A stretch of 64,000 nt of DNA. Source: Candidatus Gastranaerophilales bacterium. Lineage in GTDB: Bacteria > Cyanobacteriota > Vampirovibrionia > Gastranaerophilales > Gastranaerophilaceae. The notes under the pieces were generated by a model, which was not told where the DNA came from, ran no database searches, and saw only the letters and a program-made list of their open reading frames with translations. Of this stretch, positions 36,278 through 46,520 are shown in pieces (within the stretch, counting starts at the first letter, position 1; the number at the start of each line of letters is the position of its first letter). The translations under genes were made by a program, and so were the position numbers. The DNA is taken from NCBI GenBank assembly GCA_944324845.1, contig CALUXX010000001.1, positions 248,001 through 312,000 on the forward strand, read 5' to 3'.

Positions 36278-38266
36278 ATGAATAATTTTTTTATTGGGAT
36301 ATTTACCTTGTTATTTAGCGGCTTTGTTGTCGGTTTATTTGGAAAAAATTTCAAAACAGGTATATTATCATTTTTAGTTGCTATCGGATCTGTTTTTTGT
36401 GCAATTCCCGCAGTTAAGGTTTTGTTTTCAGGAACAGATTTAGCTAAGACTTTTGAATTTAATGCGTTATTTGGTAATGTAACTTTTGGTATTGACCATT
36501 TAAGCGCATTTTTTATTCTGATAATCACGATAATGAGTTTGATTTCTGTTATTTATTCAAACGGATATTTAAAACCTTATCTTGATTCAAAAAATATAAA
36601 TTCTCATCTTGTATTTTTGCCTGTATTAATAGCTTCTATGTTGGCTGTTGTTACTTGTCAAAATGCTTTGATGTTTTTAATTTGCTGGGAAGTGATGTCT
36701 TTAAGTTCTTTCTTTTTGGTTATTTTCGAAAGTGCTAAAAAGGAAGTTTTAAAAGCCGGTATTAAATATTTAGTATTTATGCATATTTCGGTTTTATTTA
36801 TTATAATGGCTTTTGCTTTTATGGCTATCAAGTCCGGTAGTTTTGATTTTGAATCATTTAAATTGGTTCTTCAAAATAATAAATCTTTTGCAAATATTGT
36901 ATTTATATTGGCATTTATCGGCTTTGGTACAAAAGCAGGATTTGTTCCATTTCATAACTGGTTACCTGATGCACACCCTGCTGCACCTTCTCATGTCAGT
37001 GCGATTATGTCTGGTGTGATGATTAAAACCGGTATTTATGGGATTATCAGAATGATAATGCTTATAGGTACTCCTAATAAGTTTGTAGCTTATGGATTTC
37101 TTGTAATTGCTGTTATTTCTTCTTTATACGGAGTTTTATATGCAATTACTCAGCACGATTTGAAAAGACTTCTTGCTTATCACAGTATTGAAAATATTGG
37201 TATTATCGGTATTGGTTTAGGTATCGGTATGTTGGGTTTAACTTATCATAATCCGTTAGTTACTTTGTTAGGTTTTTCCGGTGGTATTTTGCATATTCTT
37301 AACCACTCTATATTTAAAGAGTTGTTATTCTTATCTGCAGGTAGTGTATATTTAAAAACTCATACTAAAGATATTGAAACTTTAGGTGGTTTAATTAAGG
37401 CTATGCCTATCACTGCAATATTATTTTTAATCGGTTCTGTTGCAATATGCGGTTTACCTCCTTTTAACGGTTTTGTAAGTGAATTTTTGATTTACTTAGG
37501 TATGTTTAGAGGTTTGGAAATTCATCATTTCCTTGCTATGTTGCTTATTTTCTTAGCAATATCAGGACTTGCTTTAGTTGGTACAATGGCTATTTTGTGC
37601 TTTAGCAAGGCGTTTAGTATAATGTTTCTTGGTTTGCCAAGATCTGAAAAGGCTGCTAATGTTTCAATTGATTGCGGATATGTGATGACAATTCCTATGG
37701 GAATATTAGCTTTATTTACTTTACTTATTGGTATTTATCCTCAGTTTGTATTTTACGAATTGAAATTGATTGTACTTAGCATATTCCCTTCTTTAAAACT
37801 TGATTTAGTTCAGGTGTGCGCTATTCCTTTGAATATTATGCAGGTTGTTGCGTTCTTTGCAATAATGTTTATTTTATTTATGACAGTTTTAGTTGTTTTG
37901 AAACATTATTTGTTAAAGGGAAAAGTTGTATTTCATGATACTTGGGGATGTGGCTATAATAGAGCTAATAATCATATGCAATATACAGCTTCATCTTATG
38001 CGGGACCATTTTTATCAATGTTGAAACCTTTGTTTAAAAAAGTTTTTGATATCGAAAAACCTAAAAAATTGTTCCCAACAAGTGCTCATTTCCACTTACA
38101 AATCGAGGATATTGAAGAAGCTTATGTTTTAAATCCATTATTAAAATTTGATGAATGGTTTTTAACTAAGTTCGAAAGTTTGCAAAGCGGTAATATTCAA
38201 TCTTATTTGAAATATGGTTTGATATTTTTATTAGTAGTTATTATAGCAAGTTTGTTTATAGGATAG
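36278..38266 (+). CDS. Hydrogenase-4-like antiporter subunit (HyfB/NuoL type)
   Basis: A 662-residue polytopic membrane protein of the NuoL/MrpA-like antiporter family, closest in style to HyfB/HycC. ICWEVMSLSSFFLV carries the conserved helix-5 Glu, GFGTKAGFVPFHNWLPDAHPAAPS the helix-7 Lys and quinone-family loop, and HDLKRLLAYHSIENIGI the helix-8 Lys. These residues conduct ions in complex I relatives. It is the first gene of a six-gene operon for a membrane oxidoreductase; AAGGTGGAG precedes the ATG. It should move H+ or Na+ driven by electron transfer in the peripheral arm. Confidence 0.9.
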   Translation: MNNFFIGIFTLLFSGFVVGLFGKNFKTGILSFLVAIGSVFCAIPAVKVLFSGTDLAKTFEFNALFGNVTFGIDHLSAFFILIITIMSLISVIYSNGYLKPYLDSKNINSHLVFLPVLIASMLAVVTCQNALMFLICWEVMSLSSFFLVIFESAKKEVLKAGIKYLVFMHISVLFIIMAFAFMAIKSGSFDFESFKLVLQNNKSFANIVFILAFIGFGTKAGFVPFHNWLPDAHPAAPSHVSAIMSGVMIKTGIYGIIRMIMLIGTPNKFVAYGFLVIAVISSLYGVLYAITQHDLKRLLAYHSIENIGIIGIGLGIGMLGLTYHNPLVTLLGFSGGILHILNHSIFKELLFLSAGSVYLKTHTKDIETLGGLIKAMPITAILFLIGSVAICGLPPFNGFVSEFLIYLGMFRGLEIHHFLAMLLIFLAISGLALVGTMAILCFSKAFSIMFLGLPRSEKAANVSIDCGYVMTIPMGILALFTLLIGIYPQFVFYELKLIVLSIFPSLKLDLVQVCAIPLNIMQVVAFFAIMFILFMTVLVVLKHYLLKGKVVFHDTWGCGYNRANNHMQYTASSYAGPFLSMLKPLFKKVFDIEKPKKLFPTSAHFHLQIEDIEEAYVLNPLLKFDEWFLTKFESLQSGNIQSYLKYGLIFLLVVIIASLFIG

Positions 38267-38272
38267 AGAAAA

Positions 38273-39190
38273 ATGATATTAAAGATGTTAAATTTAATAG
38301 TACTTTTATTTGTTCCTTTCTTGATGATGGGACTCATAAAAAAGACAAAGGCTTTTTGGGCAGGAAGAAAGGGTGTTTCTATATTCCAACCTATGTATGA
38401 CTTTGTAAAATTAATAAAGAAAGATTTTGTAATTAGTAAAACAACATCTGTTGTATTTAATATTGCTCCGTTATTTGCAATAGCTACAGTATTATTTGCA
38501 TCAATGTTTGTTCCTCTTGCAACAGGAAAGGCTTTAATAATTATTCCTGCCGGAGTAATTGTTTTTGCATATACTTTAGGACTTGGTAAATTTATGTCTT
38601 TAGTTGCAGCAATGGATACCGGTAGCAGTTTCGAGGGAATGGGAGCATCTCGTGAAGCTTGTTTCACTTCGATTGTTGAACCTGCATTTTTCTTGTTGAT
38701 TGCTTCTGTTATGGTATTAACTGGTAATTATACTTTCGGAAGTTTATCTCACATTATTGAAAGTGCCGGTAGTTATGGTATTTTAATTACTATTTTTGCA
38801 GTTATTGTTTTATTTATAATGATGTTAGTTGAAGGTTCCAGAGTTCCGGTGGATGATCCGGCTACTCATTTGGAATTAACTATGATTCATGAAGTTATGA
38901 TACTTGATAATTCAGGATGTGATTTGGCATTATATTCTTGGGCTAACGGAATTAAAATGCTTTTAATCTCTTCTTTGATTGCTTGTATGGTTATTCCTCA
39001 TAATCTTCCAATGTTGTTGCATATATTATGTTATCTTTTGGTTATGGGAATAATTTCTATTGCTGTCGGAACTGTTGAATCAGGTATGGCTAGAATTAGA
39101 ATGTCACATGTGTTTGAATTTATATTTGTTATGAGTTCTTTATCACTTGTGGTTATGTCGCTTGTGATGGCGAAAATGTTTGGAGGTTAG
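38273..39190 (+). CDS. HyfC/NuoH-like membrane anchor subunit
   Basis: A 305-residue membrane protein of the complex I ND1/NuoH and HyfC/EchB family, the subunit that docks the peripheral arm. FWAGRKGVSIFQPMYDFVKL and VEGSRVPVDDPATHLELTM are family signatures with conserved acidic residues at the start of the ion channel. Eight helices are visible. The gene starts six bases after the antiporter gene. Confidence 0.9.
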   Translation: MILKMLNLIVLLFVPFLMMGLIKKTKAFWAGRKGVSIFQPMYDFVKLIKKDFVISKTTSVVFNIAPLFAIATVLFASMFVPLATGKALIIIPAGVIVFAYTLGLGKFMSLVAAMDTGSSFEGMGASREACFTSIVEPAFFLLIASVMVLTGNYTFGSLSHIIESAGSYGILITIFAVIVLFIMMLVEGSRVPVDDPATHLELTMIHEVMILDNSGCDLALYSWANGIKMLLISSLIACMVIPHNLPMLLHILCYLLVMGIISIAVGTVESGMARIRMSHVFEFIFVMSSLSLVVMSLVMAKMFGG

Positions 39191-39198
39191 ATTTAAAT

Positions 39199-39849
39199 AT
39201 GGCAACTGGTTTTATAATTCTATTTGGATTAACAATGTTATATTTAGCAGCTACAAGCAGAATTATTGCACATATTAGAATTCTTATTGTTCAAGGTGTG
39301 TTATTGTTTCTGATTAGTTGCTGCGGGGCTGAGCATACTAATTTGTTTAACCTTATTTTCTTAGCTGTTGAAACTCTTATTGTTAAATCAATCGTTATTC
39401 CTTGGTTTTTGTATAAGGTTTTAAAACAGACTCATTCTAATAGAGATGTGGCTGCTAATATTCCGCATTTTTATTGTTTAGTTATTTCAAGTATTGTTTT
39501 GCTTGCAGGATTTTTAGTTTCTAATTATTTCATTTCTTCTGTGAAAATGATTGCTCCAATTTATTTTGGAGTTTCTGCAGCAACAATTATTATTAGCTTG
39601 TGGTTAATTACTATTAAGCATAAAATTATTTCCAATGTAATTGAATTTATTACTATGGAAAATGGTATTTTCTTGTTGTCTTTATCAGTTGCAAAAGAAA
39701 TGCCTATGCTTGTTAATTTGGGTGTTTTACTTGATGTGTTCATTGCTGTTTACATTCTTGGATTGTTTGTCAATGAAATTAACAAAGAGTTTAATGACCT
39801 GGAAGTTTCTCATTTATCAGATTTAAAGGACTATGAATACAATGATTAA
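39199..39849 (+). CDS. HyfE-like membrane subunit
   Basis: A 216-residue protein with about seven membrane helices. Like HyfE it is a longer relative of NuoK/MrpC. ILIVQGVLLFLISCCG and ITMENGIFLLSLSV correspond to the conserved helices; the latter carries the Glu of the NuoK-type channel. Its position between HyfC- and HyfF-like genes matches the hyf operon order. Its last 17 bases overlap the next gene. Confidence 0.87.
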   Translation: MATGFIILFGLTMLYLAATSRIIAHIRILIVQGVLLFLISCCGAEHTNLFNLIFLAVETLIVKSIVIPWFLYKVLKQTHSNRDVAANIPHFYCLVISSIVLLAGFLVSNYFISSVKMIAPIYFGVSAATIIISLWLITIKHKIISNVIEFITMENGIFLLSLSVAKEMPMLVNLGVLLDVFIAVYILGLFVNEINKEFNDLEVSHLSDLKDYEYND

Positions 39850-41272
39850 TACGATTTTAATTTTCCCTATAGTAGCATGTATTTTGGTATTGCTTATTAA
39901 AAATAGAACATTTAATACTTGGATGGTTAATATTTATGCCCTTTTGCATTTTATATTTAGTATAATGCTAGTTTGGGGTAAGGATTCTTGTTTAAGTATT
40001 CCGTATTTTGCTGTTGATCATACTAATAGTATTTTTCTGTTAGTTTTATCTTTGGTTTATTTGATGGTAGCAATTTATAATACCGGATATGTTAAAAATA
40101 TTGATGTACCTGATAGACGTATAAGTCATTATTCTTTTATGATTTTAATTTTTGTGCTTTCAATGACAGGAACTATTCTTAGTACAGATTTAGGAATTTC
40201 TTGGGTATTGGTTGAGGCTACTACTTTATCAAGTGCTTATTTAATTTATTTTAATAAGACAAAACATTCTATTGAAGCCGCTTGGAAGTATGTATTTATA
40301 TGTTCTATTGGTATTGCGATGGCTTTTGTTGGTATAATTTTATTAAATGTTTCATCTGGCGATGTTAATTCATTAAACTTTGCTCAGTTATATCAACATG
40401 CAGCAAGTTTCGATGTTTCATTTTTGAAATTAGCATTTATATTTATGTTATTTGGTTTTGGAGCAAAAATGGGGCTTGCGCCGGTTCATTTCTGGTTGCC
40501 TGATGCCCATTCTGAAGCTCCTTCTCCTATATCAGCTTTATTATCTGCTGCTTTATTGAATTCTGCTTTTCTTGTAATTGTCAGAGTTTTCAAAATTATG
40601 GAAATTGCGGATTGCACAAGTTATGCAAGATTGATTCTTATGATTATGGGATTTCTTTCTTTGTTTGTTGCAACTGTATTTATTTATCATATTAAAAATT
40701 ATAAGAGAATGCTTGCGTATTCATCTATTGAAAATATGGGAATTTTAGCAATCGGACTTGCTTTAGGCGGTGTTGCTTATTATGCTGTTGTTCTTCATTT
40801 GATTGGACACTCTTTGGCTAAGGCTTCATTCTTTTTAACTTCAGGTAATGTATTAGAATTATTCGATTCTAAGAGAGTGAAATCAGTAAGCGGTTTGGTT
40901 AGTGCGGATGGTAAATCAGGATGGTTATGGATTGCTTCATTTTTAGCAATTTGTGCTTTCCCTACATCTTTGCTTTTCATAAGTGAGTTTTTGATTATTA
41001 AAACAATGATTGCTGATAAACATTATATATTGTGTGCAGTATTTGCTCTATTGTTAATGATTATTCTTTTCGGTATTGGTAGAGTTGTTATAAAAATGGC
41101 GTTTGGTGAATTGAGCGAAGATAAAGCTAAACTTATTCAAAATACTAAAAATAAAGTTTCTATATGGATGTATGTTCCTCAATTCATAATGTTAATTTTG
41201 GTTTTTGTACTTGGAATTTATATTCCTGAATGCATAAATCAAGTTATAAAATTGGCAGCTGGAGCATTTTAG
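39833..41272 (+). CDS. Second antiporter-like subunit (HyfF/NuoN type)
   Basis: A 479-residue polytopic protein of the MrpD/NuoN group. VLVEATTLSSAYLIYF carries the helix-5 Glu, GFGAKMGLAPVHFWLPDAHS the helix-7 Lys and loop, and NYKRMLAYSSIENMGIL the helix-8 Lys. The complex therefore has two independent ion-translocating modules. Two ATG codons, at 39833 and 39842, both lie inside the end of the preceding gene, so translation is coupled; either could be the start. Confidence 0.88.
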   Translation: MNTMINTILIFPIVACILVLLIKNRTFNTWMVNIYALLHFIFSIMLVWGKDSCLSIPYFAVDHTNSIFLLVLSLVYLMVAIYNTGYVKNIDVPDRRISHYSFMILIFVLSMTGTILSTDLGISWVLVEATTLSSAYLIYFNKTKHSIEAAWKYVFICSIGIAMAFVGIILLNVSSGDVNSLNFAQLYQHAASFDVSFLKLAFIFMLFGFGAKMGLAPVHFWLPDAHSEAPSPISALLSAALLNSAFLVIVRVFKIMEIADCTSYARLILMIMGFLSLFVATVFIYHIKNYKRMLAYSSIENMGILAIGLALGGVAYYAVVLHLIGHSLAKASFFLTSGNVLELFDSKRVKSVSGLVSADGKSGWLWIASFLAICAFPTSLLFISEFLIIKTMIADKHYILCAVFALLLMIILFGIGRVVIKMAFGELSEDKAKLIQNTKNKVSIWMYVPQFIMLILVFVLGIYIPECINQVIKLAAGAF

Positions 41273-41292
41273 GATAAAAGGACAGAGTTATT

Positions 41293-42762
41293 ATGGCTAA
41301 ATGGATAAAAGTAAAGAATAATACAAAAATAAATTTATCAGATATTCCTGGAATGGGAATAGACGAATTAAGAAGACAAATCATTGAACTTGCAAAACGT
41401 CCTATTGGATTTTTCGGCAAGGATTGGGGGTTTGGTTGCGTAAGATTATTTGTTATTTTGGCTGATGATGCTAATGGAGATTTGTATTTATCATCTGCAA
41501 TTTTTGGCCCAAATGACAAATCTTATGAATCTATTACTCAAGATGTTCCTGCATTTCATATGTTTGAAAGAGAATTTTATGAACAGTTCGGAATTGAACC
41601 TTTACATCATCCTTGGTTAAAGCCTGTAAGGTTAAACCAAGATAAATATCCATTTTTTGAAATGGAAGGTGAAGAAGTCCATCAGGTTGCCGTTGGACCT
41701 ATTCACGCAGGAGTTATCGAACCAGGGCATTTCAGATTTATGTGTAATGGTGAAACTGTTTACCACTTAGAAATAATGCTTGGATATCAGCATCGTGGAG
41801 TTGAAGATATGATGTTGAAAAATCCTTCAAATCAACTTGCTGAATCTATAAACGGTGATAGTGCAATCGCTTATAATATTGCTTATTCTCAGGCTATTGA
41901 AGCTTTAAAAGGAATTGAAATTTCTAATAAAGCTCAGTTAATTAGAAAAGCAGCATTAGAAATGGAGAGAATGGCAATTCATATCGGGGATTTGGGTGCT
42001 ATCGCAGGTGATATAGCTTATTTGATGGGAGCTGCTGTTTTTGGCGCAACTAGAACACTTGTTATAAATACGATGTTATCATTTTGCGGAAGTCGTTTTG
42101 GTAGAGGTTTAGTTACTGTTGGCGGTGTTAATTATGATTTATCAGAAGCTGCTATTCAAGATGCGTTAAAAACTTTTGATAAGGTTGGCAAAGATGTTGA
42201 TAGAATGGTTAATACGATGCTTAAAAATTCAACAGTAATGTCAAGACTTGAAAAAACAGGTACTGTAAGTATGGAAAGAGCAAAGGAAATTGGACTTGTT
42301 GGTATGGCGGCAAGATCTTCTGGTGTTGATATCGATACAAGATTTGATTTTCCTGACAAGTGGATGGGCGAACTTGATATAAAAAGAAAACCTTTTAAAG
42401 CTTCAGGAGATGTTAATTCAAGATTTAAACTTAGATATAAAGAAGTTAAAGAGTCTTTATCAATGATAAGAAAAATTTTTGATAAATTAAAAGAGTATAA
42501 AGATGAACCTATTATTGCTGAAGGTGTAAATAATAATTATTCATCTGATGCTATGGTAATTTCATTGGCAGAAGGTTGGCGAGGTGAAATTGTTCATATT
42601 GTTATGACTGATATTAACCGTAAAATATCAAGGTATAAAATAAAAGATCCATCTTTTAATAACTGGTATGGATTAGCGTTAGCTGTTCGTAACAATGGGG
42701 TTTCTGATTTCCCTCTTTGTAATAAAAGTTTTAATTTATCATACTCAGGAAATGATTTATAA
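41293..42762 (+). CDS. Ehr-type large subunit (HyfG/NuoCD-like, no Ni ligands)
   Basis: A 489-residue fusion of a NuoC-like N-terminal domain (about 1-125) and a NuoD/[NiFe] hydrogenase large-subunit domain. In true hydrogenase-4 the Ni-Fe centre is held by CxxC motifs near LGYQHRGVE and at the C-terminus. Here the first region reads AESINGDSAIAYNIAY and the second ends FPLCNKSFNLSYSGNDL. Only four cysteines exist (in GFGCVRL, RFMCNGE, LSFCGSR and FPLCNKS) and none forms a CxxC. The protein therefore cannot bind a standard NiFe centre. This is what defines the energy-converting hydrogenase-related (Ehr) group; its substrate is unknown. The name hydrogenase should not be transferred to it. Confidence 0.9.
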   Translation: MAKWIKVKNNTKINLSDIPGMGIDELRRQIIELAKRPIGFFGKDWGFGCVRLFVILADDANGDLYLSSAIFGPNDKSYESITQDVPAFHMFEREFYEQFGIEPLHHPWLKPVRLNQDKYPFFEMEGEEVHQVAVGPIHAGVIEPGHFRFMCNGETVYHLEIMLGYQHRGVEDMMLKNPSNQLAESINGDSAIAYNIAYSQAIEALKGIEISNKAQLIRKAALEMERMAIHIGDLGAIAGDIAYLMGAAVFGATRTLVINTMLSFCGSRFGRGLVTVGGVNYDLSEAAIQDALKTFDKVGKDVDRMVNTMLKNSTVMSRLEKTGTVSMERAKEIGLVGMAARSSGVDIDTRFDFPDKWMGELDIKRKPFKASGDVNSRFKLRYKEVKESLSMIRKIFDKLKEYKDEPIIAEGVNNNYSSDAMVISLAEGWRGEIVHIVMTDINRKISRYKIKDPSFNNWYGLALAVRNNGVSDFPLCNKSFNLSYSGNDL

Positions 42763-42773
42763 GGAATAATAAT

Positions 42774-43523
42774 ATGTTAGATACTTTAAAAGCTAGAATT
42801 TATCAAGGTAAACAATTTATAAAAGATATAGAAAATGCACCAATGCGTGAGCAATTTAGAGGCTTTCCGGTGTTGAAAAAAGGTATTGATACTTCAGTTT
42901 GTGAAGGAATTTGTCCAACTGGCGCTTTGAATTTGAATCCTTTATCTATTGATATGGGAAAATGTACTTTTTGTGGTGCTTGTGAAAGAGCTTGTAAAGC
43001 TATTGATTTGACTAATGGTTATAAATTAGCTTCAACAAGTAGAGAAAAACTTATTGTTACACCGGAAACTACATATGAAGATTATTTAAAATCAGCTGTT
43101 GAAGTAAAAAAAGAAATAGTTAAAATGTTTGGAAAATCTTTAAAATTACGTCAGGTTTCAGCAGGTGGATGTAACGGTTGCGAAATGGAATTAAATGCTT
43201 GCTCTAATGTTAATTTTGATATGGGCAGATTTGGAATTGATTTTGTAGCATCTCCAAGACACGCTGATGGAATTGTTATTACAGGGCCTATTTCTGAAAA
43301 TATGGCTTACGCTCTTGAGGATTGTTATAAATCTGTTCCTGCACCAAAATTAGTAATCCTTTGCGGAGCTTGTGCTATTTCTGGTGGGGTGTTCCAAGAT
43401 AGTGAGCATATTAATAGAGAATTTTTAGATAAATATCCTATTGATTTGTATATTCCTGGATGTCCTGTTCATCCTTTGACATTTATTAATGCTATTTTAT
43501 CTTATATAAAAGATAAAAAATAA
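42774..43523 (+). CDS. Ehr-type small subunit fused to a ferredoxin domain
   Basis: A 249-residue protein. Residues of about 30-85 form a ferredoxin-like domain with CEGICP and CTFCGACERAC. Residues 120-249 form a NuoB/[NiFe] small-subunit domain whose four proximal [4Fe-4S] ligands look intact: GGCNGCEME, LCGACAISGG and PGCPVHP. Hyf operons usually encode these as two proteins (HyfH and HyfI), so this is a fusion or a compact Ehr form. The domain would carry electrons from ferredoxin to the cofactor-less large subunit. It is the last gene of the operon. Confidence 0.88.
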   Translation: MLDTLKARIYQGKQFIKDIENAPMREQFRGFPVLKKGIDTSVCEGICPTGALNLNPLSIDMGKCTFCGACERACKAIDLTNGYKLASTSREKLIVTPETTYEDYLKSAVEVKKEIVKMFGKSLKLRQVSAGGCNGCEMELNACSNVNFDMGRFGIDFVASPRHADGIVITGPISENMAYALEDCYKSVPAPKLVILCGACAISGGVFQDSEHINREFLDKYPIDLYIPGCPVHPLTFINAILSYIKDKK

Positions 43524-43552: not shown

Positions 43553-43597
43553 TTAAAAAATAAAGGTATTTTCAAAGAAAATACCTTTATTTTTTTA
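43553..43597. terminator. Bidirectional terminator between Ehr and Etf operons
   Basis: AAAAAATAAAGGTATTTTC-AAA-GAAAATACCTTTATTTTTT pairs almost completely and has A and T runs on both sides. It serves the two convergent operons; the etfA stop codon lies inside the right arm. Confidence 0.9.
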
Positions 43598-44582
43598 AGT
43601 ATTCATTAAGAATTTCAAACACATCGCCGACAATTCCAGTATCTGCGATTTCAAAAATTGGTGCACTATCATCGTTATTTATTGCAATGATATGTTCAGA
43701 ACCTGTCATACCTATCGTATGTTGGATTGCTCCTGAAATTCCGCAAGCGATATAAATTTTTGGAGCAACGGTTTTACCGGTTTGTCCTACTTGAATATTT
43801 GATGGCGCAATTCCCATTTCTACGGCACCTCTTGATGCTGCGATTGTGCCTCCAATTTTGTTAGCAAATTTTTTGAGTAGAGCAAAACCTTCTTTGTTTT
43901 TTAACCCTTTTCCGCCTGCTACAATAATTTCAGCTGAATCCAATTCATCAATATTTGAATCAATTGTCTTTTTAAAATCTAAAATGCTGTATTTGTCGCT
44001 TGTAATATCAAAATTTACAGGGCAATTTATAAATTCTGTCTGAACAAACATATCATCAGGCGTAACTTTAAAAACTTTTGGTCTAACGGTTGCCATTTGA
44101 GGATATGTTTTACATAATATTGTTGCCATTAACTGTCCGCCAAAAGTTGGACGGGTTGCTGCTAATTTTCCGTTTTCATTTATGTCTAAATCTGTGCAAT
44201 CTGCGGTTAAACCAGTTCCTAATGAGCTTGCTATTCTTGGTGCTAAATCCCTTCCTTGATTGGTTGCTCCAACAAGCATTATTTCAGGTTTTATTTGTTT
44301 TATAAGGTTTATTATAAGTTTTGAATAGTGTTCATTATTATAATTCTTAAAATTTTCATTTTCAAAATAGTAAACCTTGTTGATCCCTCGATTTTCAAAG
44401 GCTTCTTTGTATTTGAAAACTATATTTGGTCTTGTTAGGATTACAGCATTAACATCTACATTGCCTAATTTTTTCGATAATTCTTTTGCTTTTTCTGCCA
44501 ACTCAAAAAACACGGTATGAATATATTCATCCCTTGTCAGTTGCGCATATATAAGAATTCCGGAATGTTCTAAATCAGGCAT
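43587..44582 (-). CDS. etfA: Electron transfer flavoprotein alpha subunit
   Basis: A 331-residue FAD-binding subunit of EtfAB. The C-terminal FAD domain has IIVAGGKGLKNKEGF, IAASRGAVEMGIAP, QVGQTGKTVAPKIYIACGIS and GAIQHTIGM, followed by NNDDSAPIF. EtfAB shuttles electrons between flavin dehydrogenases and other carriers, and in anaerobes it can bifurcate NADH electrons toward ferredoxin. It is the last gene of a four-gene operon and overlaps etfB by eight bases, with AGGAGAG before its ATG. Confidence 0.94.
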   Translation of the reverse strand: MPDLEHSGILIYAQLTRDEYIHTVFFELAEKAKELSKKLGNVDVNAVILTRPNIVFKYKEAFENRGINKVYYFENENFKNYNNEHYSKLIINLIKQIKPEIMLVGATNQGRDLAPRIASSLGTGLTADCTDLDINENGKLAATRPTFGGQLMATILCKTYPQMATVRPKVFKVTPDDMFVQTEFINCPVNFDITSDKYSILDFKKTIDSNIDELDSAEIIVAGGKGLKNKEGFALLKKFANKIGGTIAASRGAVEMGIAPSNIQVGQTGKTVAPKIYIACGISGAIQHTIGMTGSEHIIAINNDDSAPIFEIADTGIVGDVFEILNEYLKK

Positions 44583-45372
44583 TCTTGTTCTCTCCTAATG
44601 TTTGTATTCTTTCTTTTAATAAATTTACACTATCTGTTGTGTTTAAATTAAATTTTTGAGCATTGTGAGTAGGTATATTTCTAAATGCTTTGCTTACAAA
44701 TGTTGGAGAGCCTCTTAACCCTACCTTATTGGCATCAAAACCTATATCATCCAAAGTGCAGATTTTTATTTCTTTTTTTGAAGCCTTTATTATACCTGCA
44801 ATTTTTGCTCTTTGAGGTTCAAAATTTTGCTGTAAGACACAAATCAATGCCGGAAGTTTTACTTTTACTGTTTCAACCCCATCTTCCATTTCTCTTGTAA
44901 GTGTCAATGTTTTATTTGTTCCGTGTATTAAGTCTTTTACATATGTTACTTGTGGAATATCTAAAAAACTTGCTATATTTGGACCCGTTTGAGCGGTATC
45001 GCCATCAACAGCAAACTGACCGCATATTATAAGGTCAAAATTCGGAAGGTATCTTCTTATTGCTCCAGAAATTGTTGTTCCTGTCGCATAGGTATCTGCT
45101 CCTGAAAACTTTTTATCAGAAATCAAAACTGCATCATCACAACCTAACGCCAGAACCTTTCTAAGCATATCACTAGCTTGGGGAGGTCCCATTGTAAATA
45201 CTGTGATTTCAGTGTTTTCAATTTCTGATTTAAGTTTCAATGCAAATTCAACTGCATAAACATCATAAGGATTAATAATACTTTCAACACCTTCTCGCTG
45301 AATGGTATTATTCTCCGTCCACCTGATATCTGTTGTATCAGGAACTTGTTTTATACATAATGCGATTTTCAT
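44575..45372 (-). CDS. etfB: Electron transfer flavoprotein beta subunit
   Basis: A 265-residue beta subunit. CIKQVPDTTDIRW at the N-terminus, NPYDVYAVEFALKLK, TMGPPQASDMLRKVLALG, the GADTYATG segment and CGQFAVDGDTAQTGP (nucleotide/FAD pocket) are diagnostic. The AVDGDTAQTGP form resembles EtfB of strict anaerobes with bifurcating systems, but bifurcation is not proven by it. It follows a Cys-rich small gene by 14 bases; no clear ribosome binding site is visible. Confidence 0.94.
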   Translation of the reverse strand: MKIALCIKQVPDTTDIRWTENNTIQREGVESIINPYDVYAVEFALKLKSEIENTEITVFTMGPPQASDMLRKVLALGCDDAVLISDKKFSGADTYATGTTISGAIRRYLPNFDLIICGQFAVDGDTAQTGPNIASFLDIPQVTYVKDLIHGTNKTLTLTREMEDGVETVKVKLPALICVLQQNFEPQRAKIAGIIKASKKEIKICTLDDIGFDANKVGLRGSPTFVSKAFRNIPTHNAQKFNLNTTDSVNLLKERIQTLGENKNA

Positions 45373-45386
45373 GTTTTTTTATATTT

Positions 45387-45572
45387 TTATTGTTGAGTCT
45401 GTCTAGCTTTTTGTTTTTGATTTGCATCTAATAATGCGTTATATCCTATTAAGTACATAGCACATTTTTGTACATTAGGTAGATACCATGCACATTTCTT
45501 TTGGCTGCAAACCATATCAATACCAGACCCAATACTGATTAAAGGACATACAGGAATATCGTTTTTACCCAT
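45387..45572 (-). CDS. Cys-rich small protein between sudB-like gene and etfB
   Basis: A 61-residue protein, MGKNDIPVCPLISIGSG..., with four cysteines in the pattern C-x12-C-x4-C-x9-C, ending in a basic Gln/Lys-rich tail. The spacing could bind a metal ion or Fe-S cluster. AGGAGAA precedes the ATG, and it sits 11 bases after the upstream gene and 14 before etfB, so co-expression is very likely. Similar Cys-patterned tiny proteins exist near redox genes in other anaerobes, but I cannot name a family. Confidence 0.75.
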   Translation of the reverse strand: MGKNDIPVCPLISIGSGIDMVCSQKKCAWYLPNVQKCAMYLIGYNALLDANQKQKARQTQQ

Positions 45573-45583
45573 TTGTTATTCTC

Positions 45584-46429
45584 CTACACTTTCTCATTTG
45601 CTTGTTTTAGTAAATTACAATTTTCAGAACGTTTGCGTTCTTGATCTTTATAGATTTTGGTTCTGTTAATAACTTCATCAAAATCAATTTTGTGTGCATC
45701 AAAATCCGGTCCATCTACACAGGCAAATTTTGTTTCTCCGCCAACAGTAACTCGGCATGCTCCACACATTCCGGTTCCATCTACCATAATTGGGTTCATA
45801 CTTGCTTCTGTGTAAATTCCCTTATCTCTTGTTAGTTCTGCAACTGCTCTCATCATAGGCATTGGACCTACTGCAATAACATAGTCTACTTTTTCTCTTT
45901 CTATAATGTCTTTTAATACGGTTGTACCAAAACCTTTTATTCCATATGAACCATCATCTGTTGTTAAATATAATTCTGTTGAAGCTTCTTTCATTTTATC
46001 TTCCCAGAATAGTAAATCTTTTGTTCTTGCGCCTGCTATCATATATACCTTGTTGCCTGCTTCTTTTAATGCTTTTGATATTAAATAGCAAGGTGCTGCT
46101 CCATATCCGCCTGCTACACATACTGCTGTTCCATATTTTTCGATATGTGTTGGTTTGCCTAATGGTCCTACTATATCTACTAATTCATCGCCAACTTCCA
46201 GTTGAGCTAATTTTTTTGTAGAGTATCCAACTGCCATAAATACCAGTGTTAATTCGCCTTTTTCCTTGTTTACATCTGCTATTGTTAGCGGCACTCTTTC
46301 GCCATCTTCTTCTACTCTGAAAATGATAAATTGTCCTGCTTTTGCATTTCTCACTACGTAAGGAGCATCTATAGTTATTTCATACTGATTTGGACATATT
46401 TCATTTTTGGATAATATTTTATAACCCAT
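45584..46429 (-). CDS. NfnA/SudB-like ferredoxin--NAD(P)+ reductase subunit
   Basis: A 281-residue FAD/NAD(P)- and [2Fe-2S]-binding flavoprotein of the dihydroorotate dehydrogenase electron-transfer family. GQFIIFRVEEDGERVPLTI binds FAD, VGPLGKPT and CVAGGYGAAPCYLISKAL bind the nucleotide, and GTGMCGACRVTVGG with a later Cys in FACVDGPDFDAHKIDF binds the 2Fe-2S cluster. The ATG at 46429 behind AAGGAGAG is preferred over an upstream start. The large partner (NfnB/SudA, GltD-like) is absent from the window. As first gene of the operon with etfBA it suggests a flavin-based electron-transfer system. Confidence 0.88.
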   Translation of the reverse strand: MGYKILSKNEICPNQYEITIDAPYVVRNAKAGQFIIFRVEEDGERVPLTIADVNKEKGELTLVFMAVGYSTKKLAQLEVGDELVDIVGPLGKPTHIEKYGTAVCVAGGYGAAPCYLISKALKEAGNKVYMIAGARTKDLLFWEDKMKEASTELYLTTDDGSYGIKGFGTTVLKDIIEREKVDYVIAVGPMPMMRAVAELTRDKGIYTEASMNPIMVDGTGMCGACRVTVGGETKFACVDGPDFDAHKIDFDEVINRTKIYKDQERKRSENCNLLKQANEKV

Positions 46430-46520
46430 TTTTCTCTCCTTATTCTCAACCATATTTGGATTATACAACAAATTTCAATTTTATGCCACTGTTTTACATC
46501 TCCTTTACATTTATATATCA

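Follow-up and report, generated by a model that had tools for sequence, protein, structure and literature searches.

A Hydrogenase-Related (Ehr) Complex of Gastranaerophilales with a Conserved Replacement of the Ni-Fe Site

The DNA analyzed here, referred to as the window, is a stretch of 64,000 nucleotides from the 1.96-Mb, 99% complete genome of a Candidatus Gastranaerophilales bacterium. It carries a six-gene operon on the forward strand (36278–43523) that encodes HyfB-, HyfC-, HyfE-, and HyfF-like membrane proteins together with a large and a small subunit, and thus contains the subunit set of Ehr complexes (NuoL/NuoH/HyfE-like membrane proteins plus large and small subunits). All six genes lie on the plus strand: a HyfB/NuoL-like antiporter module of 662 aa (36278–38266; Pfam Proton_antipo_M, 2.4e-57; hydrogenase 4 subunit B, 7e-172), a HyfC/NuoH-like membrane anchor of 305 aa (38273–39190; Pfam NADHdh, 3.6e-33), a HyfE-like membrane subunit of 216 aa (39199–39849; NCBIfam hydrogenase 4 membrane subunit, 8e-18, under its cut-off), a HyfF/NuoN-like antiporter module of 479 aa (39833–41272; Pfam Proton_antipo_M, 2.9e-44), the large subunit EhrL of 489 aa, a fused NuoC+NuoD/HyfG-like protein (41293–42762; Complex1_49kDa and 30kDa), and the small subunit EhrS of 249 aa, a ferredoxin domain fused to a NuoB/HyfI-like protein (42774–43523; Oxidored_q6, 1.3e-27, and Fer4). 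Charged residues of the membrane subunits are retained in nearly all related sequences: E138, K219, K250, and K347 of the HyfB-like protein in 99–100% (n = 97), E136, E187, D194, E201, E207, and E269 of the HyfC-like protein in 98–100% (n = 99), and E128, K212, K330, and E385 of the HyfF-like protein in 97–100% (n = 106).

A comparison of the neighborhoods of relatives found no acceptor or donor gene fixed beside the operon. On the minus strand of the window (43587–46471), genes for EtfAB and for a reductase subunit of the NfnA/dihydroorotate-dehydrogenase type point toward the operon. EtfAB was rejected as a conserved operon partner, as the EtfAB/NfnA-like adjacency is found only in the closest relatives.

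The EhrL gene is an uninterrupted reading frame from ATG to stop. The protein contains no CxxC motif, and its cysteines are scarce (e.g., 151, 265, and 476). Residues ~180–195 read NQLAESINGDSAIAYN, and the C-terminal end reads CNKSFNLSYSGNDL, followed by the stop codon. Alignment with E. coli HyfG and HycE places N187, S190, S483, and G486 at the four Ni-Fe ligand positions, none of which is cysteine. The N-terminal former site, N-G-D-S at 187–190 (41851–41862, +), occupies the place of hydrogenase C-G-x-C, and the C-terminal former site, S483-Y-S-G-N-D-L489 with the stop codon (42739–42762, +), that of C-Y-A/S-C-x-D-R. A sequence-only reading of this DNA had quoted the two sites of the large subunit as AESINGDSA and LSYSGNDL and had claimed that every CxxC motif and all four ligand cysteines were gone; the position and both quotations are exact, and the intact frame and the alignment bear the claim out. 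The same alignment showed that EhrL has no C-terminal maturation extension, its chain ending where the mature hydrogenase ends. E143 (41719–41721, +) is the counterpart of the proton-transfer glutamate of hydrogenases (MbhL E21); it is invariant in the aligned Ehr set and has no equivalent in complex I. The alignment with complex I Nqo4 further matched the quinone-binding H38 and Y87 to I142 and G188, and the quinone His/Tyr pair is therefore absent; the comparison that had been proposed as a check thus found hydrogenase ligands and quinone residues alike replaced. The nearest solved structures are E. coli FHL HycE (7z0s), then MbhL (6cfw), and then complex I, with MBS weaker. An AlphaFold model of EhrL (pLDDT 80, pTM 0.84; best match 7z0s_E) confirmed the fold; the pocket region (residues 119–164 and 473–489) is of low confidence in this model, which was built without the small subunit.

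Several results indicated that the gene is real and that its product is not a hydrogenase. At all four ligand positions, the residues are identical in relatives of 96%, 90%, and 81% identity that come from other assemblies. The dN/dS of EhrL is 0.037–0.088, with 0.037 being the value against the 96% relative, and the six operon genes range from 0.03 to 0.17. A frameshift or misassembly, named in advance as what could refute the claim, is thus excluded by the open frame, the residues shared with independent relatives, and the low dN/dS. The second such possibility, another Ni-binding subunit, finds no place either: a family search of the genome found no PF00374 large subunit and a single PF00346 locus. 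HypD is absent from all 30 family genomes tested (the window genome and 29 others), while the control searches were positive in 13 of 14 genomes from two other families of the same class. That a working [NiFe] hydrogenase has its cysteines masked by an error would agree with annotation models calling the membrane subunits hydrogenase 4, but the intact frame, the agreement of other assemblies, and the absence of HypD and of the C-terminal extension rule it out for practical purposes. Because all metal-holding residues are lost, the complex is not a hydrogenase. The sequence comparisons support filing it under Ehr, as had been suggested, with no Ni-Fe ligands, extension, or HypD and with the energy-coupling residues kept.

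The emptied site is conserved in its own right. Among 87 close orthologs, position 483 is Ser and position 486 is Gly in every one, and position 190 is Ser or Thr with the exception of one Met. Position 187 is Cys in 78 of the 87, and position 485, adjoining the fourth ligand, is Cys in 62. Most close orthologs therefore have one cysteine per site, whereas the window lineage lacks both Cys187 and Cys485 and has none at either. Cys187 is missing from nine of the 87, all of which also lack Cys485. A paired loss of the two cysteines was rejected: locus L113 is an exception, and independent-pair tests are not significant (3–4 concordant, p 0.125–0.25). It is unsure that Cys187 is an inherited hydrogenase cysteine; the nearest outgroups have Ala, Ser, or Val at that position.

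Beyond these orthologs, the signature x-G-[DE]-[ST] with a C-terminal NKSF..SY.G.DL is common to complexes of Variovorax, Rhizobium, Azospirillum, Methylovirgula, Paraburkholderia, and Meiothermus, apart from a partial deletion of x-G-[DE]-[ST] in Meiothermus and a Ser483-to-Asn change in Paraburkholderia. The Variovorax complex shares 43.6% identity and exactly the six-gene order of the window operon. At the two sites, families of the same class made up of large-genome relatives show ASD/AGD and LSY.G.DL. G188, D189 (nearly always), S483, Y484, G486, D488, and L489 are conserved. This family-wide conservation of the replacement site means that it was rebuilt and kept, rather than merely lost by decay.

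Within Gastranaerophilaceae, an EhrL ortholog (~50% identity or more) is found in 45 of 146 genomes, and its operon is patchily present even within the genus. Other genomes of the family carry a gene cluster for an 11-subunit complex I, and both complexes occur together in some. In a tree rooted on E. coli, all sequences without Cys ligands form one clade (SH-aLRT 99) beside two families, f10 and f13. Placement in this tree was against E. coli HyfG/HycE and proteobacterial and Thermales homologs only; the two trait columns were removed, and several branches are long, which leaves the deep order unsure. Some Ehr-like operons are plasmid-borne, in rhizobia, Thermales, and Variovorax (L136, L141, L138, and L135), where they are labeled "NADH-quinone oxidoreductase subunit C" or "hydrogenase 4"; this suggested transfer between distant bacteria. 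Some arrangements differ from that of the window. Plasmid 3 of Variovorax sp. PBL-E5, an aerobic soil bacterium, has a second hydrogenase-4-like set (L135, 14433–19260) ~3.4 kb past the first. In one subclade (L077, L087, L091, L100, and L176), the genes for the large and small subunits occur by themselves, with unrelated genes upstream in place of those for membrane subunits. In L119 (10065–11522 and 5876–7671), the large subunit has no adjoining small-subunit gene, and EtfAB, encoded on the same strand, lies ~2.4 kb downstream.

The iron–sulfur clusters of EhrS were assigned by the established NuoI/HycF cysteine pattern. The medial (N6b-type) ligands C47, C64, C67, and C70 (42912–42983, +) are present in 87–88 of 88 orthologs, and the proximal ligands C133, C136, C200, and C230 (43170–43463, +) in 86–87 of 88. 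The proximal ligands have the hydrogenase-type CxxC spacing of MbhJ and HycG, and MbhJ (6cfw_J) is the nearest solved chain. Two cysteines of the N6a-type distal cluster are missing from the ferredoxin domain; this distal-type motif is complete in 28 of the 88 orthologs and incomplete in 60. The sequence-only reading had taken the remaining subunits to be intact, and this holds for the Lys/Glu residues of the antiporter and NuoH-like subunits and for the proximal cysteines, but not for the distal-type motif of EhrS.

Families f10 and f13, which belong to the same class as the window, are the mirror image of the window complex. In all nine of their loci (L169–L172, L175, and L180–L183), the large subunit has CGMC/CGLC and a C-terminal CYAC/CYSC without an extension, and the small subunit lacks the proximal-cluster cysteines (GSCNAEEAEL, GDGAC, PGNPP); HypD was found in none of the 12 genomes tested. 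The four cysteines are kept while the proximal cluster and HypD are lost, and four cysteines are therefore not enough for calling a hydrogenase; these complexes are likely mis-annotated as such. A Meiothermus relative (L138, 9986–12135, on an Allomeiothermus silvanus plasmid) has a large subunit without Ni-Fe cysteines and a small subunit without any proximal cysteine. Loss of the proximal cluster in f10/f13 and Meiothermus implies that a redox function is not shared by the whole family. A speculative and rather unlikely extension would be that the Ehr/hydrogenase-4 lineage sheds its redox chemistry stepwise and that at least some members transport ions and have a peripheral arm that is non-redox or senses metals. 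Such a function is not known for relatives of complex I that have a NuoD/NuoB arm.

The host genome encodes PFOR along with two FeFe hydrogenases, an A6-like and a B1-like one, and a family search did not find RnfD in it; these results make ferredoxin a likely carrier. Neither complex I nor Rnf nor a [NiFe] enzyme turned up in the genome besides the window complex, which may therefore be its main redox-linked ion pump. The genome has a MenA-like prenyltransferase that scores under every curated cut-off, and searches of the genome gave no match to MqnA/D and no MenD over the cut-off.

The reading that we prefer, with about even confidence, is a ferredoxin-linked ion pump that would hand electrons to a small acceptor in the vacated pocket. 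In its favor are the replaced ligands, the missing extension and HypD, the single PF00346 locus without PF00374, the conservation of the replacement site, cluster ligands, proton glutamate, and membrane charges, the low dN/dS, the presence of EhrL in 45 of 146 family genomes, and a host with PFOR and FeFe hydrogenases but no RnfD. Against it are the lack of a fixed acceptor or donor gene beside the operon, the loss of the proximal cluster in related complexes, and the low confidence of the AlphaFold model in the pocket region. Electrons of low potential, most probably supplied by PFOR-reduced ferredoxin, would first reach the medial [4Fe-4S] cluster of EhrS, the distal cluster being gone, and from there the proximal cluster. 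The acceptor would sit where the Ni-Fe center used to be, in a pocket formed by E143, G188-D189-S190, and S483-Y484-G486. In the manner of MBH, MBS, and complex I, movements of the loops around this pocket would power the passage of H+ or Na+ through the HyfC, HyfB, and HyfF subunits. Such a machine could run either way, oxidizing ferredoxin with pumping or, as Di Rienzi et al. proposed, reducing ferredoxin at the expense of the gradient. The latter, in which an ion gradient drives the formation of reduced ferredoxin from a weaker donor, was suggested for gut Melainabacteria in the 2013 report (PMC3787301) and would suit a genome without Rnf; as the main function it is very doubtful, since the operon has no linked donor gene and PFOR already makes reduced ferredoxin.

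The main rival to the ferredoxin-linked pump is a non-redox complex, in which the peripheral arm would serve as a cap with a structural or regulatory role, and the membrane subunits would work as an Mrp-like cation/proton antiporter. The Mrp-like membrane subunits, an operon without an identified acceptor site, the distal motif incomplete in 60 of 88 orthologs, the loss of proximal cysteines in the nine f10/f13 loci, and the loss of both Ni-Fe and proximal cysteines in Meiothermus all fit this rival, which we nevertheless consider unlikely: each of the eight medial and proximal ligands is retained in 86–88 of 88 orthologs of the window clade, which is hard to account for if no electrons are transferred. 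An MBS-like activity, in which the proximal cluster would reduce a sulfur compound such as sulfane sulfur, polysulfide, or a disulfide, is more doubtful. Both complexes have lost the Ni-Fe site, and the two residual cysteines of MBS are non-catalytic, their mutation being without effect (PMC7684303); the absence of both residual cysteines from the window lineage is consistent with such dispensability. However, the shortened loop that gives MBS/Mbx a three-Cys proximal cluster is not found in EhrS, whose MbhJ-type spacing predicts four ligands; EhrL keeps the proton glutamate that MBS lacks; and HycE and MbhL are closer matches than MBS. A minimal complex I, acting as a ferredoxin:quinone oxidoreductase, could draw on the homology to NuoD and on the MenA-like prenyltransferase, but with I142 and G188 in place of Nqo4 H38 and Y87, a prenyltransferase below curated cut-offs, and, in a search for menaquinone genes, neither a MqnA/D match nor a MenD above its cut-off, it is highly improbable.

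Ehr complexes occur widely, with gut bacteria, rhizobia, and nitrifiers among their hosts. An automatic label such as "hydrogenase 4" would lead to a false prediction of H2 metabolism; the warning that such annotation would be wrong here was justified. The conserved replacement site and the natural variants without residual cysteines provide concrete residues and sequences for testing.

The kind of complex described here is already known from this lineage, as Ehr in Melainabacteria. Di Rienzi et al. (2013; PMC3787301) described in gut Melainabacteria a six-subunit NiFe-like complex without binding motifs, and Matheus Carnevali et al. (2019; PMC6349859) named the Melainabacteria complexes Ehr. 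In lineage, subunit number, and defect, the complex described in the former study corresponds to that of the window, and the two are very likely the same. The accessible text of that study gives no residue-level or evolutionary account; new here are the conserved replacement site, the stepwise cluster loss, and the mirror-image sister clade. Ehr complexes without CxxC motifs and of unknown function have been reported repeatedly (PMC10284858, PMC4378227, PMC10432482). Those of Geobacter, comammox Nitrospira, Sulfobacillus, and Melainabacteria have the same subunit set and no Ni-Fe CxxC (PMC6349859, PMC10284858, PMC4378227, PMC7894505), whereas the window lineage differs in a ferredoxin domain fused to the small subunit, a mostly incomplete distal motif, and no linked formate dehydrogenase. 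EhrL of D. ruminis has all four cysteines (PMC3569383), and in Geobacter the abundance of Ehr is higher with formate (PMC7894505). Ehr is presumed to couple redox reactions to ion translocation.

Compared to E. coli hydrogenase 4/FHL (HyfG, HycE), the window complex shares the fold, the HyfB-C-E-F-G-H/I order, the proton glutamate, and the membrane charges, while CGIC and CYSC (DPCYSCTDR), a cleaved 32-aa extension, HyfD, and Hyp maturation belong to the E. coli enzymes. Of the features of group 4 [NiFe] hydrogenases, it has the proximal [4Fe-4S] ligands and lacks the four ligand cysteines and the Hyp machinery. MBS of Pyrococcus furiosus likewise retains the ion-pumping module with a Ni-Fe site partly gone, but differs in keeping two large-subunit cysteines, in its three-Cys proximal cluster, and in having no proton glutamate (PMC7684303). 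Complex I has homologous peripheral and membrane subunits (~25% identity) and a quinone-site His/Tyr pair that the window complex lacks, whereas the small subunit of the latter carries the hydrogenase-type CxxC.
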